In this document: positions 7,960-16,967 of the stretch, in pieces
How positions within the stretch are numbered: position 1 is the stretch's first letter
Layout of the letters: the number at the start of each line of letters is the position of its first letter
Origin: a virus
Length of the DNA: 22,390 nt
Virus record (IMG/VR): IMGVR_UViG_3300027637_000005
Coordinates: 1-22,390 of that record
Strand: one strand, 5' to 3'
Program-made: the position numbers and the translations under genes
The notes under the pieces: model-generated
Database searches by the model: none
What the model saw: the letters and a program-made list of their open reading frames with translations, nothing else
Told to the model about the DNA's origin: nothing

Positions 7960-8268
7960 CTACCTCTCTTCCCGGGTGGCGAGCCACCCCGTGATGTGGC
8001 TGAACGCCAGCGCTGCCGCTGCGGCCATGAACCACCGGGTGTCGCCCCAGGCCCACCACGCCGCTCCTACGCCCGCACCGACGTACACCGACGCGCACCA
8101 GTCGCAGGTGAGCAGATAGGCGAGGGGGTCGAGCCTGGGGGGCAGGGCGACGATGAGCCGGTCCCGGGGCAAGGTGAAGATCACGTCCCGTGTCACGAGA
8201 CGCGTCAACCGTGCGGTGGCCAGTGCCGCGAGGGCCAGAGTGATCACGTCCATAGGTGCACCCATCAT
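7960..8268 (-). CDS. DUF1360-like small membrane protein
   Basis: 102 residues, coupled to terminase by an ATGA overlap (8265-8268), with GAGAGGAAGG upstream. N-terminal helix ITLALAALATARLTRLVTRD, a short basic loop, then the segment LAYLLTCDWCASVYVGAGVG with a C-D-W-C motif, and a last hydrophobic helix (WFMAAAAALAFSHITGWLA). This layout (R-L-T-R-L near the first helix, CxWC before the next) is that of DUF1360 proteins, which occur in spore formers and in actinophages. Two or three membrane helices are likely. It ends 4 bp before the portal start. Role unknown; it could act in lysis or membrane modification, and the Cys pair could bind metal or be redox active. Confidence 0.75.
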   Translation of the reverse strand: MMGAPMDVITLALAALATARLTRLVTRDVIFTLPRDRLIVALPPRLDPLAYLLTCDWCASVYVGAGVGAAWWAWGDTRWFMAAAAALAFSHITGWLATREER

Positions 8269-9707
8269 GACGCCTTCCTCTCTGCTGCGGCACGCCGTGC
8301 GGCGATGGCCGGGTGGACGGCGGGACCCAGGCGTACCGCCTTGTGCGGACTGATCAGACTCGACTGCGACCGGTCCCGCAGCATGTGGTACGTGACGGCG
8401 TGCACGAGCGCGTCGATGCGGTCCGGCGACACGGTCGTCTCCTCGGGGATCCAGGTCGTCAACTGGTCCTCCAGCTCGGGCAGTACGCCGACGTGGTGAA
8501 CGCGTCCCTGTTCGTAGAGCATGGCCACGGGCTGGGCCCTCAGCCTCTTGCCCTGGGAGGCGTTGACGCGCTGGATCGGTGCGGGCCCCGCGTCGTCCCC
8601 GTGCAGGTCCCGCCACACCCGCTGGAGGACGTTCTCGATCCAGTCCTTCCCGCCGTTGTCCTCCACCACGATGCGTGCGGCGCCGTACTGCTCACGCAGG
8701 GCGTAGGCAGCCCGTGCGGTCTCGTCCGGGCTCCGCCTGCGGGAGGCGTCCGCCAGGACGTAGTGGTGCCGGTCGACGCCCCACCCGGCGACGGAGAGGC
8801 CCGTCTCGTCACCCTTGGCCGTGCCGGCGGGGTCGAGACCGACGACGATGGAGACCAGCTCGGGGACCTGATCGGGGTTCACCCGGTGCGTGTCGATGTG
8901 GACCCGGGCCACGAGGGCGCCGGGCAGGTCCTCCAGGACCTCGGCGTTCAGCTCTTGGCGTCCCAGCGTGGTGCCCTCGTACTTCGCCACCACGGAGCGC
9001 TGAAACGTCTTGGCCAGGTTGTGCAGGTTGTCGTACGTGGAGCCCCGCACGGTGACGCACTCGGGGTCCTTCAGCAGTTCCTTGATCAGGGTGAGCGGGC
9101 GGGGTGTGGTCGTGATGCAGATCTGGGGGTGGTCGCCCAGGCGCATACCGAGCTGCGCCATGTCCCAGGCGTTCTGCATGTACCGCCACGCCGCCAGCTC
9201 GTCGAACCAGCCGTAGTGATGCTGAGGTCCTCGCAGGCGGTCCGGCTCGTCGGCCGAGTACAGCGTCTGGATCGCCCCGTTGGGGTAGACCAGGCGCCGC
9301 TTCGACGGCTGGTACTCGGGCCGGAACATGGCCGACGCGCACGCCAGGATGCCGGACTCACCTTCCACGAGGATGTCCCGGACGTCGGCGGCGGTGGGCC
9401 CGATGAGGGCCCCTCGCTCCTGGGTGCGCGCCTTGTCGATGGACCACTCGGCGCCCGTACGGGTCTTGCCCCAGCCACGCCCCGCCAGGGCCATCCACGT
9501 GTCCCAATTGCCCGGGGGTGGATGCTGAGAGGCGCGTGCGTGGACGCCCATGCGTCCCGGGTGGGGTCGGCCGTCGCAGTCCGGGACGTCACAGAGCCAC
9601 GGGACGCGGCCGGCCTCCCGTTCCGACACGACCTGTTCAAGCAGGGTCTCCAGCCGCTCCAGCTCGGAGGCACCCAGACGCTTGAGCTCCGCCCGGGACA
9701 GGCCCAA
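8265..9707 (-). CDS. terL: Terminase large subunit
   Basis: 480 residues. ATPase half: Walker A GRGWGKT at about 76-82, Walker B YGWFDE (acid residues 169-170), coupling motif TTTPRP near 199-204. Nuclease half of RNase H fold: GLDPAG with D292, VVEDNGG near 347-353, and a late PDRIDALVHA. These identify the motor that packages DNA and cuts concatemers. Before the ATPase there is a small Cys/His cluster (CDVPDCDG with later His residues, 39-62) that may bind zinc. The start appears to be TTG at 9707 directly after the TAG of the small subunit, with GGGGGTGG upstream. No intein or frameshift is seen. Confidence 0.92.
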   Translation of the reverse strand: MGLSRAELKRLGASELERLETLLEQVVSEREAGRVPWLCDVPDCDGRPHPGRMGVHARASQHPPPGNWDTWMALAGRGWGKTRTGAEWSIDKARTQERGALIGPTAADVRDILVEGESGILACASAMFRPEYQPSKRRLVYPNGAIQTLYSADEPDRLRGPQHHYGWFDELAAWRYMQNAWDMAQLGMRLGDHPQICITTTPRPLTLIKELLKDPECVTVRGSTYDNLHNLAKTFQRSVVAKYEGTTLGRQELNAEVLEDLPGALVARVHIDTHRVNPDQVPELVSIVVGLDPAGTAKGDETGLSVAGWGVDRHHYVLADASRRRSPDETARAAYALREQYGAARIVVEDNGGKDWIENVLQRVWRDLHGDDAGPAPIQRVNASQGKRLRAQPVAMLYEQGRVHHVGVLPELEDQLTTWIPEETTVSPDRIDALVHAVTYHMLRDRSQSSLISPHKAVRLGPAVHPAIAARRAAAERKAS

Positions 9708-14620: not shown

Positions 14621-14916
14621 GATTGATCTTCCGTCTCGGTGGACCACACGATGATCGTGCGGTGGTCGTTGTCCGGATCGGGCACCGCTGTGAACTGCGG
14701 TTTTCCTTCCGGAGAGGGGTCGGAGAGTGGGGGAGGGGAGGGGTCGTCTGTATCCTGCACGGACTTGAGAGGGCGCCCGATGTACCAGGGGAGCCAGACA
14801 GCCGCCCCGCCCCAGAGGAGGAGCCTCCCGGCGGTGGGGAAGGCGGCCAGCAGCACCGCCAGGATCCCCACCGCCAGCACCACCAGGAAGCACCCGGCGG
14901 CCAGCTTGCTGGGCAT
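14617..14916 (-). CDS. Membrane protein with Pro-rich cytoplasmic tail (99 aa)
   Basis: Two hydrophobic helices (residues about 4-27 and 31-46, reading AAGCFLVVLAVGILAVLLAA and RLLLWGGAAVWLPWYIG) are followed by a polar, Pro/Asp-rich tail (about 52-99) ending TEDQS. Start ATG overlaps the upstream stop by one base. Two segments plus a soluble tail suggest a hairpin anchor. Unknown function. Confidence 0.75.
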   Translation of the reverse strand: MPSKLAAGCFLVVLAVGILAVLLAAFPTAGRLLLWGGAAVWLPWYIGRPLKSVQDTDDPSPPPLSDPSPEGKPQFTAVPDPDNDHRTIIVWSTETEDQS

Positions 14917-15419
14917 CACAGGGCCCCGTACACGGTCTCGCCAAGCCAGTTGGCCGCCTGGGCGAGCGGTACCGCCGTGAGGCCTGCGATCCCGGCGGAG
15001 GTGCCCAGGCAGGCACCACACCAGACGCCCGTCTTCACGTCCGGACCGCACTTGCGGAACTTGATCACCGCCAGGACGATGCCGGTCAGCAGTAGGACCA
15101 TGGCTGTTCCCTGGGTGGTGAGCGGCAGGTAGTTGCCCCGGCTGCTCACCCCCGCGTCGGCCCCGACGCCGATCCACAGAGCCGCGTCACCGAGCCAGTT
15201 CGAGACCCAGAGAACCGCGTCGAAGAGCCACCCGATGAGACCCGCCACTGACAGGGTGGCGAGGGCTCCGTACGCCCACCCGAAGGCGAACGGGATGAGA
15301 CCCACGATCGCGTCCTGGGGGCTGTTCCGGATGGAGCCGACACCCGGGTACCAGCGGATCAGGAAACGGGACAACAGCAGCAGTCCCACGGTCACCCCGC
15401 CCATCGTCGCGACGATCAC
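14916..15419 (-). CDS. Multi-pass membrane protein (167 aa)
   Basis: GTG start at 15419, GTGA overlap with the gene before. At least four hydrophobic segments: about 3-20, 37-70 (including FAFGWAYGALATLSVAGLIG), about 103-120, and about 130-165, the last with a WCGAC motif and Gly/Ala packing. Overlapping placement with the next membrane proteins suggests co-translation of one membrane assembly. No known family; a role like the small Spd spread proteins of Streptomyces plasmids is possible but only by analogy of context. Confidence 0.75.
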   Translation of the reverse strand: MIVATMGGVTVGLLLLSRFLIRWYPGVGSIRNSPQDAIVGLIPFAFGWAYGALATLSVAGLIGWLFDAVLWVSNWLGDAALWIGVGADAGVSSRGNYLPLTTQGTAMVLLLTGIVLAVIKFRKCGPDVKTGVWCGACLGTSAGIAGLTAVPLAQAANWLGETVYGAL

Positions 15420-16126
15420 GGTCCTACCCCCTTCTGCGCCTTGTCGACGTCACGCCGGGCGTTCGTGGCCCGGTCCTGCCCCCAGCCGTACTCGGCCCGG
15501 AGTGCACGCATGGAGGTACGCCCCCCGTTGCGCCGGTCGGAGTCGAGTACGCACTCGGCGTCCGCACTCAGCCGCACCGGCTCTTCGAATGCGGGTGCAC
15601 TCGGGGGAAGTGCGGGTGCACTCGGCACCGCACTCTCCTTGGAGTACACCGTGCAGTCGGGTGCACCTGCGCACTCCGGGTGGGCCCAGACGCACCCCGG
15701 AGGGAGTGCACCCGCACTCGGCTCCTCGGGTGCACCGGGTACGTCCTCGGGTGCGGGTGCACTCGGCTCCGGGTGCGGCTTCACCGACTGCACCTGGGTC
15801 CGGAACAGGTAGTGGATGCGCCACAGTACGAGGGGTGCGAGTGCACCCACCGCACTGATCAGGCCCCAGTGCACCGGGAGTACGCCGGCCGTCACCAGAT
15901 GCGAAGCCACGTTCATGACGACCATGGCGACCACGGCGGCCAGTACGTCCCGGTGCACCTGGAGTGCACGGATCACGTACAGGTCGAGTGCACCCGGTAC
16001 GGATGCGGCGACGAACCAGTGCACCCCGGTCGCCGTGGCGAGGGTGTACTCCGCGTGGGCGGTCCCGATGAGGGTGCACCCGAGTGCACCCCACAGGATC
16101 CAGTCGGTCCGGGTGCGCGCACTCAT
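15416..16126 (-). CDS. Multi-pass membrane protein, SpdB/DUF2637-like layout (236 aa)
   Basis: Start at ATG 16126 by ATGA overlap with the previous gene. Four membrane segments fill residues about 8-125, with ASVPGALDLYVIRALQVHRD after the second; this resembles the P-x-x-x-D-x-x-V pattern of DUF2637-type proteins in Streptomyces plasmids and integrative elements. Residues about 127-190 are a low-complexity Pro/Ala/Glu region with SAPA repeats; residues about 195-236 look like a small basic HTH-type tail (GGRTSMRALRAEYGWGQDRA). Half of the GTGCAC array lies in this gene. Spread proteins bind DNA and membrane during mycelial plasmid transfer. Family call is tentative. Confidence 0.6.
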   Translation of the reverse strand: MSARTRTDWILWGALGCTLIGTAHAEYTLATATGVHWFVAASVPGALDLYVIRALQVHRDVLAAVVAMVVMNVASHLVTAGVLPVHWGLISAVGALAPLVLWRIHYLFRTQVQSVKPHPEPSAPAPEDVPGAPEEPSAGALPPGCVWAHPECAGAPDCTVYSKESAVPSAPALPPSAPAFEEPVRLSADAECVLDSDRRNGGRTSMRALRAEYGWGQDRATNARRDVDKAQKGVGP

Positions 16127-16428
16127 GGCGCACTCGGCAGGGTGATCCGGGGGGTGCGCGTCCGGGTGCAGGTGCACCTGTACTCGGTGCACCCGTCTTC
16201 ATCGTGCACTCCAGCCGGGTGCGCGCACCTGATGCACTTCACCCCGGACGCACTCGCCTCCCGCTCGCTCCGGGTGCAGGTGCATCCGTCGTGAGTGCAC
16301 CCAGAGTGCAGGTGCACTCCGGCGGAGTGCGTGCACTCGGTGCACTGCGGTCCCCAGACCGACTCCACGGTCTCACCGGGTGCGGGTGCACTCGTCACAG
16401 GTGCGGGTGCACTCGTCGGCGGGTGCAC
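15502..16428. repeat. Array of 25 GTGCAC sites (GGGTGCACTC / GAGTGCACCC)
   Basis: GTGCAC starts at 15502, 15595, 15616, 15661, 15706, 15730, 15757, 15841, 15869, 15953, 15964, 15988, 16019, 16074, 16084, 16172, 16187, 16204, 16295, 16312, 16331, 16340, 16386, 16407 and 16423. The usual context is GGGTGCACTCG or its complement, in both orientations, with irregular spacing. Many partial sites (GTGCGGGTGC, CGCACTC) lie between. By eye only a handful of GTGCAC occur in the other 21 kb. The sites are read in all three codon frames of the two host genes, including inside a membrane helix, so a codon or peptide repeat alone does not explain them. Confidence 0.9.
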
Positions 16429-16560
16429 CGGGTCGCCGGCGATGTACCGGGCGAACACCTTCGCCAAGGCGATGACGTCGGGTGCCGACTCCATCTGCCA
16501 GCCGACACCCCAGCGGGCGGCGGCGTTCAGGGCGTGGGCCCTGATCTCTTCGGGGGTCAT
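16123..16560 (-). CDS. Protein with two tandem Cys/His-rich repeats (145 aa)
   Basis: Residues 1-45 are a helical domain (MTPEEIRAHALNAAARWGVG and ALAKVFARYI), followed by a SAPAP-rich linker (about 48-62). Then two 25-residue repeats occur at 73-97 and 109-133 of the form C-x2-C-x-H-x2-A-G-V-H-x3-G-C-x4-C-x-C-x-R. The Cys and His spacing suggests each repeat binds zinc. ATGA overlap with the nuclease gene before (16557-16560). Ten of the GTGCAC sites lie in this gene, so part of the peptide repetition may come from the DNA array. A DNA-binding role, perhaps at the array, is an attractive but untested idea. Not a family I can name. Confidence 0.75.
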   Translation of the reverse strand: MTPEEIRAHALNAAARWGVGWQMESAPDVIALAKVFARYIAGDPVHPPTSAPAPVTSAPAPGETVESVWGPQCTECTHSAGVHLHSGCTHDGCTCTRSEREASASGVKCIRCAHPAGVHDEDGCTEYRCTCTRTRTPRITLPSAP

Positions 16561-16967
16561 GACTCGTTCCTCTCAGGCTCCCAGGCAACCCAGTCCTTAG
16601 GACCGGGTCCGGTGAGCATGCGGAAATGAGGCCGGACGCGTCCGGTGTCCTCGTCCGTCGCCCGGAAGGCGACCAGCGGTACGGCACCGGCCCGCGTGGC
16701 CAGGTCCTGTACGCGCTGGCGGTCCGCCGGGCTGATGTTGGGGCGGGAGATCTTGCACTGGATGAACAGCAGGACGGGCCATTCATCCTCCGGCACCCGA
16801 GGGCCCACGGCCACGATGTCGACGGCACCCCGGGACCCGGAGGACCGCAGACACTCGTAGCCGAACCCGGAACCCCACCGCTCCGGCCGGGTACCCGCCA
16901 GGTAGTGCATGACGTCGAGTTCGAAGTTGGCGCCCTGGCGGGTCGTGTTCCTAGCCACGGCTGCCAC
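16557..16967 (-). CDS. Hjc-like PD-(D/E)XK nuclease
   Basis: 136 residues from GTG 16967; GTG 16958 (133 aa) is an equally possible start because neither has a strong ribosome binding site. Motifs of the Holliday-junction resolvase (Hjc) type: GANFELDVMHYL with E16, then ECLRSSGSRGAVDIVAV with R41, S43-S44 and D50, and LLFIQCKIS with Q70-C-K72, followed by a helix that packs on the core. The acidic residue usual before x-K is Q here, which occurs in some members. Likely resolves recombination or replication intermediates before packaging. It overlaps the 30-aa gene upstream and is ATGA-coupled to the Cys-rich gene downstream. Confidence 0.75.
   Translation of the reverse strand: MAAVARNTTRQGANFELDVMHYLAGTRPERWGSGFGYECLRSSGSRGAVDIVAVGPRVPEDEWPVLLFIQCKISRPNISPADRQRVQDLATRAGAVPLVAFRATDEDTGRVRPHFRMLTGPGPKDWVAWEPERNES

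Follow-up and report, generated by a model that had tools for sequence, protein, structure and literature searches.

A dense array of short DNA words in a membrane-protein gene of a Streptomyces phage, a putative binding platform for the protein it encodes

The nearest precedent for the locus described here is the SpdA2/sps system of the Streptomyces plasmid pIJ101, from which self-binding sites that lie inside a gene and affect stability are already known. SpdA2 is a 135-aa DNA-binding protein, purified with a His tag, that has an N-terminal DNA-binding region and binds sps palindromes inside its own coding region, at two or three sites (PMC4170104). Synonymous removal of sps, or deletion of the gene, lowers the segregational stability of pIJ101, and sps is nearly one palindrome in all plasmids (PMC4170104). 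We confirmed the 12-bp sps palindrome, CGTCACGTGACG, in pIJ101. The phage gene that is the subject of this work, gene A, resembles this system in that a Streptomyces mobile element, an Spd protein and sites within the gene are involved, binding by the gene A protein being a prediction. It differs from SpdA2, which is a soluble protein with two sites in its gene, in its transmembrane (TM) anchor and in the C-terminal position of its helix-turn-helix (HTH); across genes of its kind there are about 10-60 sites, and the word varies with the HTH.

In both TraB/clt (TRS) and FtsK/KOPS short repeated words are read by the winged helix of a membrane protein, whereas no motor domain or FtsK gene is found here. 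The phi29 protein p16.7 is a membrane-anchored phage DNA-binding protein tied to replication; it is like the gene A protein in its membrane anchoring and in the DNA binding proposed for the latter, but it is not known to bind with sequence specificity or to have an array of sites in its gene. Sites that lie within the gene of their binder are found in the lambda O iterons and in parS inside B. subtilis spo0J. In contrast to the gene A system these comprise few sites and soluble proteins, and we know of no co-diversification of word and HTH of the gene A kind among them. Lastly, the Spd membrane proteins of Streptomyces plasmids (SpdB) and the DUF2637 (PF10935) family share with gene A a TM domain, a linker and a C-terminal tail. 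However, pIJ101 SpdB has no array and neither do 29 of the top 30 DUF2637 genes of whole Streptomyces genomes; the array is therefore not general to the protein family. Several of the array carriers described below are DUF2637 proteins by Pfam.

The window, by which we mean the whole stretch of DNA analysed, is the 22.4-kb IMG/VR record IMGVR_UViG_3300027637_000005, whose closest DNA matches are Streptomyces phages only. It contains an endolysin gene and, at 8265-9707, a terminase large subunit gene that is also present in 22/30 related records and places the window among the tailed phages (Caudoviricetes). A tRNA-Gly (acc) is predicted on the minus strand at 1312-1407. An earlier note on this DNA had reported 25 GTGCAC sites at 15502-16428, read in all three codon phases and even within a membrane helix, and each of these observations was borne out. 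The whole window contains 32 GTGCAC, against 12.1 ± 3.3 (maximum 26) in dinucleotide shuffles of the whole window, or about 0.5 per 927 bp. The three phases are used 3/11/1 times in gene A and 3/2/5 times in gene B, and the membrane-helix sites at 16074-16089 are read as Gly-Ala-Leu-Gly-Cys-Thr. By k-mer analysis GTGCAC is one form of a wider enriched word, GRGTRC, which occurs in either orientation and is often fused into the palindrome GRGTGCACYC; following this analysis and the comparison of homologues, GTGCAC was dropped as the conserved word in favour of GRGTRC. The 60 GRGTRC of the array (Table 1) occupy 34% of the bases there, a further 75 lie in the other 21 kb, and no full palindrome of the window lies outside the array, which has 11. 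GRGTRC is about equally frequent on either strand in the gene A family of the window, and this word is not the sps palindrome.

Table 1. Position of the array and of the genes that carry or adjoin it (coordinates of the window).
Feature	Position	Strand	Basis or remark
Array: 60 GRGTRC, including 25 GTGCAC and 11 GRGTGCACYC	15488..16485	both orientations	site counts
Gene A, 236 aa, main array carrier	15416..16126	-	four TM helices, linker, C-terminal HTH
Part of gene A that codes for the linker (aa 115-187), most site-dense	15566..15784	-	site counts, AlphaFold2 model
Part of gene A that codes for the HTH (aa 188-236), of type I (GQDRA), proposed GRGTRC reader	15419..15565	-	
Gene B, 145 aa, carries upstream part of array (22 GRGTRC, z 6.9)	16123..16560	-	
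Gene C, 167-aa membrane protein, phrog_16379	14916..15419	-	without array

The density of sites in gene A is 8.2 per 100 bp in the linker-coding part, 4.4 in the TM-coding part and 2.7 in the HTH-coding part. In the AlphaFold2 model four helices (aa 4-114) are followed by a linker of low confidence and, at the C-terminus, by three more helices (aa 188-233, pLDDT ~90); the C-terminal part modelled alone again forms three helices (pLDDT 96). Fold searches with gene A returned no significant match; the weak matches of its C-terminal part were mainly HTH or winged-helix DNA-binding domains. The window gene A does not match the DUF2637 Pfam model. Profile-profile comparison with DUF2637 gave 13.7% with Pfam-positive members and 99.2% once L212 and L197, two intermediates, were added. 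The TM part connects to DUF2637 through intermediates, which falls short of established membership. The gene B protein has two Cys/His-rich repeats (CxxCxHxAGVHxxxGCTxxxCxCTR), and in many phages and prophages of Streptomyces gene C lies beside a TM-HTH gene. A weakly Hjc/RusA-like resolvase gene adjoins the array at 16557-16967 and is conserved in three relatives.

Enrichment of the array goes beyond what protein composition explains. Gene A contains 38 GRGTRC, against 14.9 ± 2.6 when its own codons are shuffled (z ~9) and 7.1 with background codons, and the 22 of gene B compare with 9.0 ± 1.9 in codon shuffles, which hold the protein sequence and the codon counts fixed. Control genes (the helicase gene and genes C and D) showed no excess of GRGTRC in codon shuffles. 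Moreover, AGT, GCA and GTA, rare codons from which the word is built, are used at about 6 to 14 times their rate in background genes. It is thus exceedingly improbable that the array has no function as DNA and is a by-product of codon bias, or of the expansion of repeats, in a linker of low complexity. The linker is indeed rich in Pro, Ala and Glu, and two arrays described below, in phage VWB and in L271, resemble peptide repeats, but against this stand the codon shuffles, the use of three phases, the presence of sites even in TM helices, the sites in non-coding DNA of phage StarPlatinum and the link of word to HTH.

Profile searches placed gene A homologues in 14 viral loci, at 44-66% identity, and the homologue search found none in bacterial genomes; four of the homologous loci came from a DNA scan that was blind to protein. 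An array is present in 14/14 of these loci, with its peak on gene A. The codon-shuffle z for GRGTRC is 7.6-12.9 in the window gene A and its homologues, save for L137, in which the word has switched to GRGAGC (z 6.6) and the HTH residues GQxRA have become GWPRA as well. L141 favours GRGTAC. GTGCAC itself is not enriched in L141 or L137, an outcome that the earlier note had named as counting against its reading; it arises only because GTGCAC is narrower than the word that is conserved, and both loci have an array. Pairs of loci share 55% of their site positions in the TM-coding part, compared with 23% after codon shuffling, so that both retention and turnover have occurred. The recent expansion of a short repeat, which the earlier note had offered as an option, does not accord with these shared positions, with the persistence of the array in 14 diverged loci or with the substitution of other words in other lineages.

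No integrase was detected in nine contigs of the window family, which are probably virulent or incomplete. A role in prophages only was rejected on this ground, and partition of the classical prophage kind is therefore doubtful there. Partition by ParA was also rejected, a ParA-type ATPase (AAA_31, PF13614 model) being found in 0/18 related records. No result pointed to a phage DNA-modifying enzyme, a further suggestion of the earlier note.

The wider comparison spans about a hundred relatives, and a search with gene C brought in 61 loci. In many of the loci linked to gene C, an array of a different word lies in a TM protein gene just upstream of gene C. The word follows the class of HTH. Type I (IGQxRAxR) is found with GRGTRC or GTAC-cored variants, type II with CCGGAC/CGGACA, type III with CGGAAC, type IV with GGCTCA, type V (MerR-like) with GCGTCC or CGTTGC, and type VI with CGAACA and others; in 16 loci of type VII there is no comparable array. 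We recorded the pairings before bacterial genomes were scanned. Among the new, non-duplicate loci from that scan, type III occurred with CGGAAC in 10/10 and type VII without an array in 4/4, and loci of types I, II and VI were less numerous and in part had weak arrays, several of types II and VI among them. For weak arrays automatic PWM discovery in coding DNA was swamped by codon periodicity and was not used.

A partial Mantel analysis of 31 arrays, run with the HTH-coding DNA removed, gave 0.65 for the HTH (p 3e-4), 0.32 for the TM part and 0.02 for gene C; as the permutation leaves some shared ancestry, the link between word and HTH is strong but short of proof. The mean word correlation was 0.12 in the 116 pairs with similar TM and dissimilar HTH, compared with 0.63 where both were similar. 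Pairs with dissimilar TM and similar HTH were set aside because all of them include L220, the TM segment of which is probably mis-cut. The window and L212 have TM parts that align over 88 residues at ~50% identity, and their HTH and word differ. Gene C was rejected as the cause of the arrays, given its partial Mantel value and the existence of arrays without it. The clearest exception to the pairing of HTH and word is L168 (457-1272), where a type I-like HTH (IGQRRAQRI) is found with GCAGCC. The CGGCAA repeats of L193 and L194 were rejected as members of the TM-HTH array system, since they belong to peptide-repeat genes. Those at 150-570 of L194 code for a hexapeptide-repeat-like protein near gene C and bear no relation to the HTH arrays.

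Taken together, the excess over codon shuffles, the conservation of the array in homologues and the co-variation of word and HTH support selection at the DNA level, as the earlier note had argued from the use of three frames. The same three lines of evidence, all of them from sequence, make the HTH of gene A very probably the reader of the array, and we strongly infer that the gene A protein binds it.

Further cases come from a plasmid and from phage isolates. A gene of plasmid NZ_CP108470, found by type III HTH similarity alone, contains 26 CGGTAC, against 1.0 expected, with no gene C nearby. Kromp gp82 has a type II HTH and 20 copies of CGGACA, matching L190, and StarPlatinum gp32 has 18 copies of GTGACA. 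The word of StarPlatinum is retained in LukeCage, JimJam, Targaryen and Coruscant, and the gp32-type proteins of StarPlatinum, Targaryen and Coruscant are 67-71% identical. In StarPlatinum the sites are located in the linker-coding part and downstream of gp32, rather than upstream, and the word runs on into the non-coding DNA that follows (4 sites in 70 bp, against a background of 0.2 per 100 bp). The TM-HTH proteins of phiSASD1, Dubu and Gilgamesh have no array, and OnionKnight has none either. In VWB gp24 a type I-like HTH is accompanied by repeats of GCACCC/GAACCC, which may be peptide repeats. In types I and III the sites are spaced in helical phase, with a period of 10.7 (z 10.6 and 14.5 against jitter that preserves codon phase), a signal that is often weak in single loci and that comes from homologues that are not independent. 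Such phasing is not seen in Kromp, StarPlatinum, L190 or the NZ_CP108470 plasmid gene.

Kromp has CGGACA sites at a second place, 30228-30738 (L298:1729-2239), in the divergent immunity region, where some lie within the immunity repressor gene and others between it and an HTH gene, and where another regulator may bind. Moreover, the array of the window starts in gene B, upstream of gene A. Both observations would suit operators, at which the gene A product, or another regulator that shares its specificity, for example an immunity repressor, controls transcription of the locus. We consider this unlikely, however, in view of the dozens of sites across the coding region, the position of the StarPlatinum sites and the lack of significant similarity between Kromp gp37-39 and the gp82 HTH. 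Moreover, no integrase was detected in the window-family contigs, and hence an immunity repressor is not expected there.

A second cluster in StarPlatinum, of 13 GTGAC sites, is intergenic (NC_048721 79679-79813; L296:2180-2314), and JimJam has a counterpart with 11 GTGAC sites (79186-79519; L297:3187-3520). This cluster is a candidate origin or centromere. The sps core (CGTCACGTGACG) resembles the StarPlatinum word, and TGTCACGTGACA occurs once in the non-coding cluster of StarPlatinum. The cluster, which in StarPlatinum is followed by a slightly AT-rich stretch (57% vs 52%), also favours a reading of the arrays as a replication origin or iterons like those in lambda O, to which the membrane protein would recruit the replisome. 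We regard that as decidedly improbable. Gene A has no initiator-like domain that we could find, the array itself is GC-rich, and in G001 and G002 there is neither a second cluster nor a cumulative GC-skew extreme at the array.

The earlier note had also likened the locus to the TraB repeats of Streptomyces plasmids. Its view of a binding-site array in an Spd-like gene is supported, but the TraB/clt part is not. Transfer sites read by an FtsK-type DNA pump would fit an Spd-like gene with clustered short repeats (60 GRGTRC). FtsK gamma (PF09397) is weakly matched by the type I HTH profile and by 7/20 type I members (best E 0.0052), and JimJam, a relative of StarPlatinum, carries an annotated FtsK-like translocase. 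However, an FtsK/SpoIIIE domain was found in 0/30 related records, a set that included nine window-family contigs of 26-44 kb and excluded the window itself, a 22-kb fragment. No type I HTH exceeded the Pfam cut-off for FtsK gamma, and the HTH of the window gene A did not match that model. There is thus very little to be said for a pump of this kind.

We therefore return to gene A as a reader of its own gene. We propose that the array is a cluster of binding sites for the protein of gene A, whose C-terminal HTH, joined to the TM helices by a flexible linker, would read GRGTRC and GRGTGCACYC. If the HTH lies in the cytoplasm, as we assume, many membrane copies of the protein could bind the locus at once and moor the phage DNA to the membrane, in the manner of a centromere or a membrane attachment site. 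The outcome might be local capture of DNA, its positioning in replication, or maintenance and spread within the multi-compartment hyphae of Streptomyces. As a joint claim, an HTH that reads the array together with some linkage of DNA to the membrane is likely. A role in mooring or segregation is put forward tentatively, its chances falling a little below even.

We consider the odds evenly balanced as to whether self-addressed membrane tethers, each consisting of a TM protein, an exchangeable HTH and an array of its own word within the gene, are widespread, occurring in phages and prophages of Streptomyces as well as on at least one plasmid. If they are, anchor and address would be inherited and swapped as a unit, and elements that share a hypha would avoid cross-reaction. 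This would assign a candidate job to the DUF2637/Spd-like membrane proteins, which occur commonly on mobile elements of Streptomyces without an assigned function; a search of open-access papers found DUF2637 named in one. It would also show that the DNA of a gene can serve both as the code for a protein and as the binding platform of that protein. The HTHs would moreover form a natural series with readable words (GRGTRC, GRGAGC, CGGAAC, CGGTAC, CGGACA, GGCTCA and GTGACA), useful for studies of specificity. More broadly, these loci prompt one to ask how phage DNA is organised within hyphae of many compartments.

Several observations concern the annotation of related genes and repeats. PHROG 733 is labelled excisionase, but its members L173 (71-826) and OnionKnight gp57 (L142:37093-37908) are membrane proteins of the DUF2637 kind; Dubu gp38 and phiSASD1 gp15, annotated as excisionase, are relatives. 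In L271 (reverse complement, 2100-2760), a DUF2637 gene taken from a whole genome, CGAAGC occurs 22 times in forward and once in reverse orientation, in a Glu-Ala-rich linker; this is either an array or a codon repeat. Finally, GTGAGTGCAC repeats at 5046-5268 of L006, from a different phage, are apparently non-coding, lie near an integrase-like gene and are possibly arm or regulatory sites.
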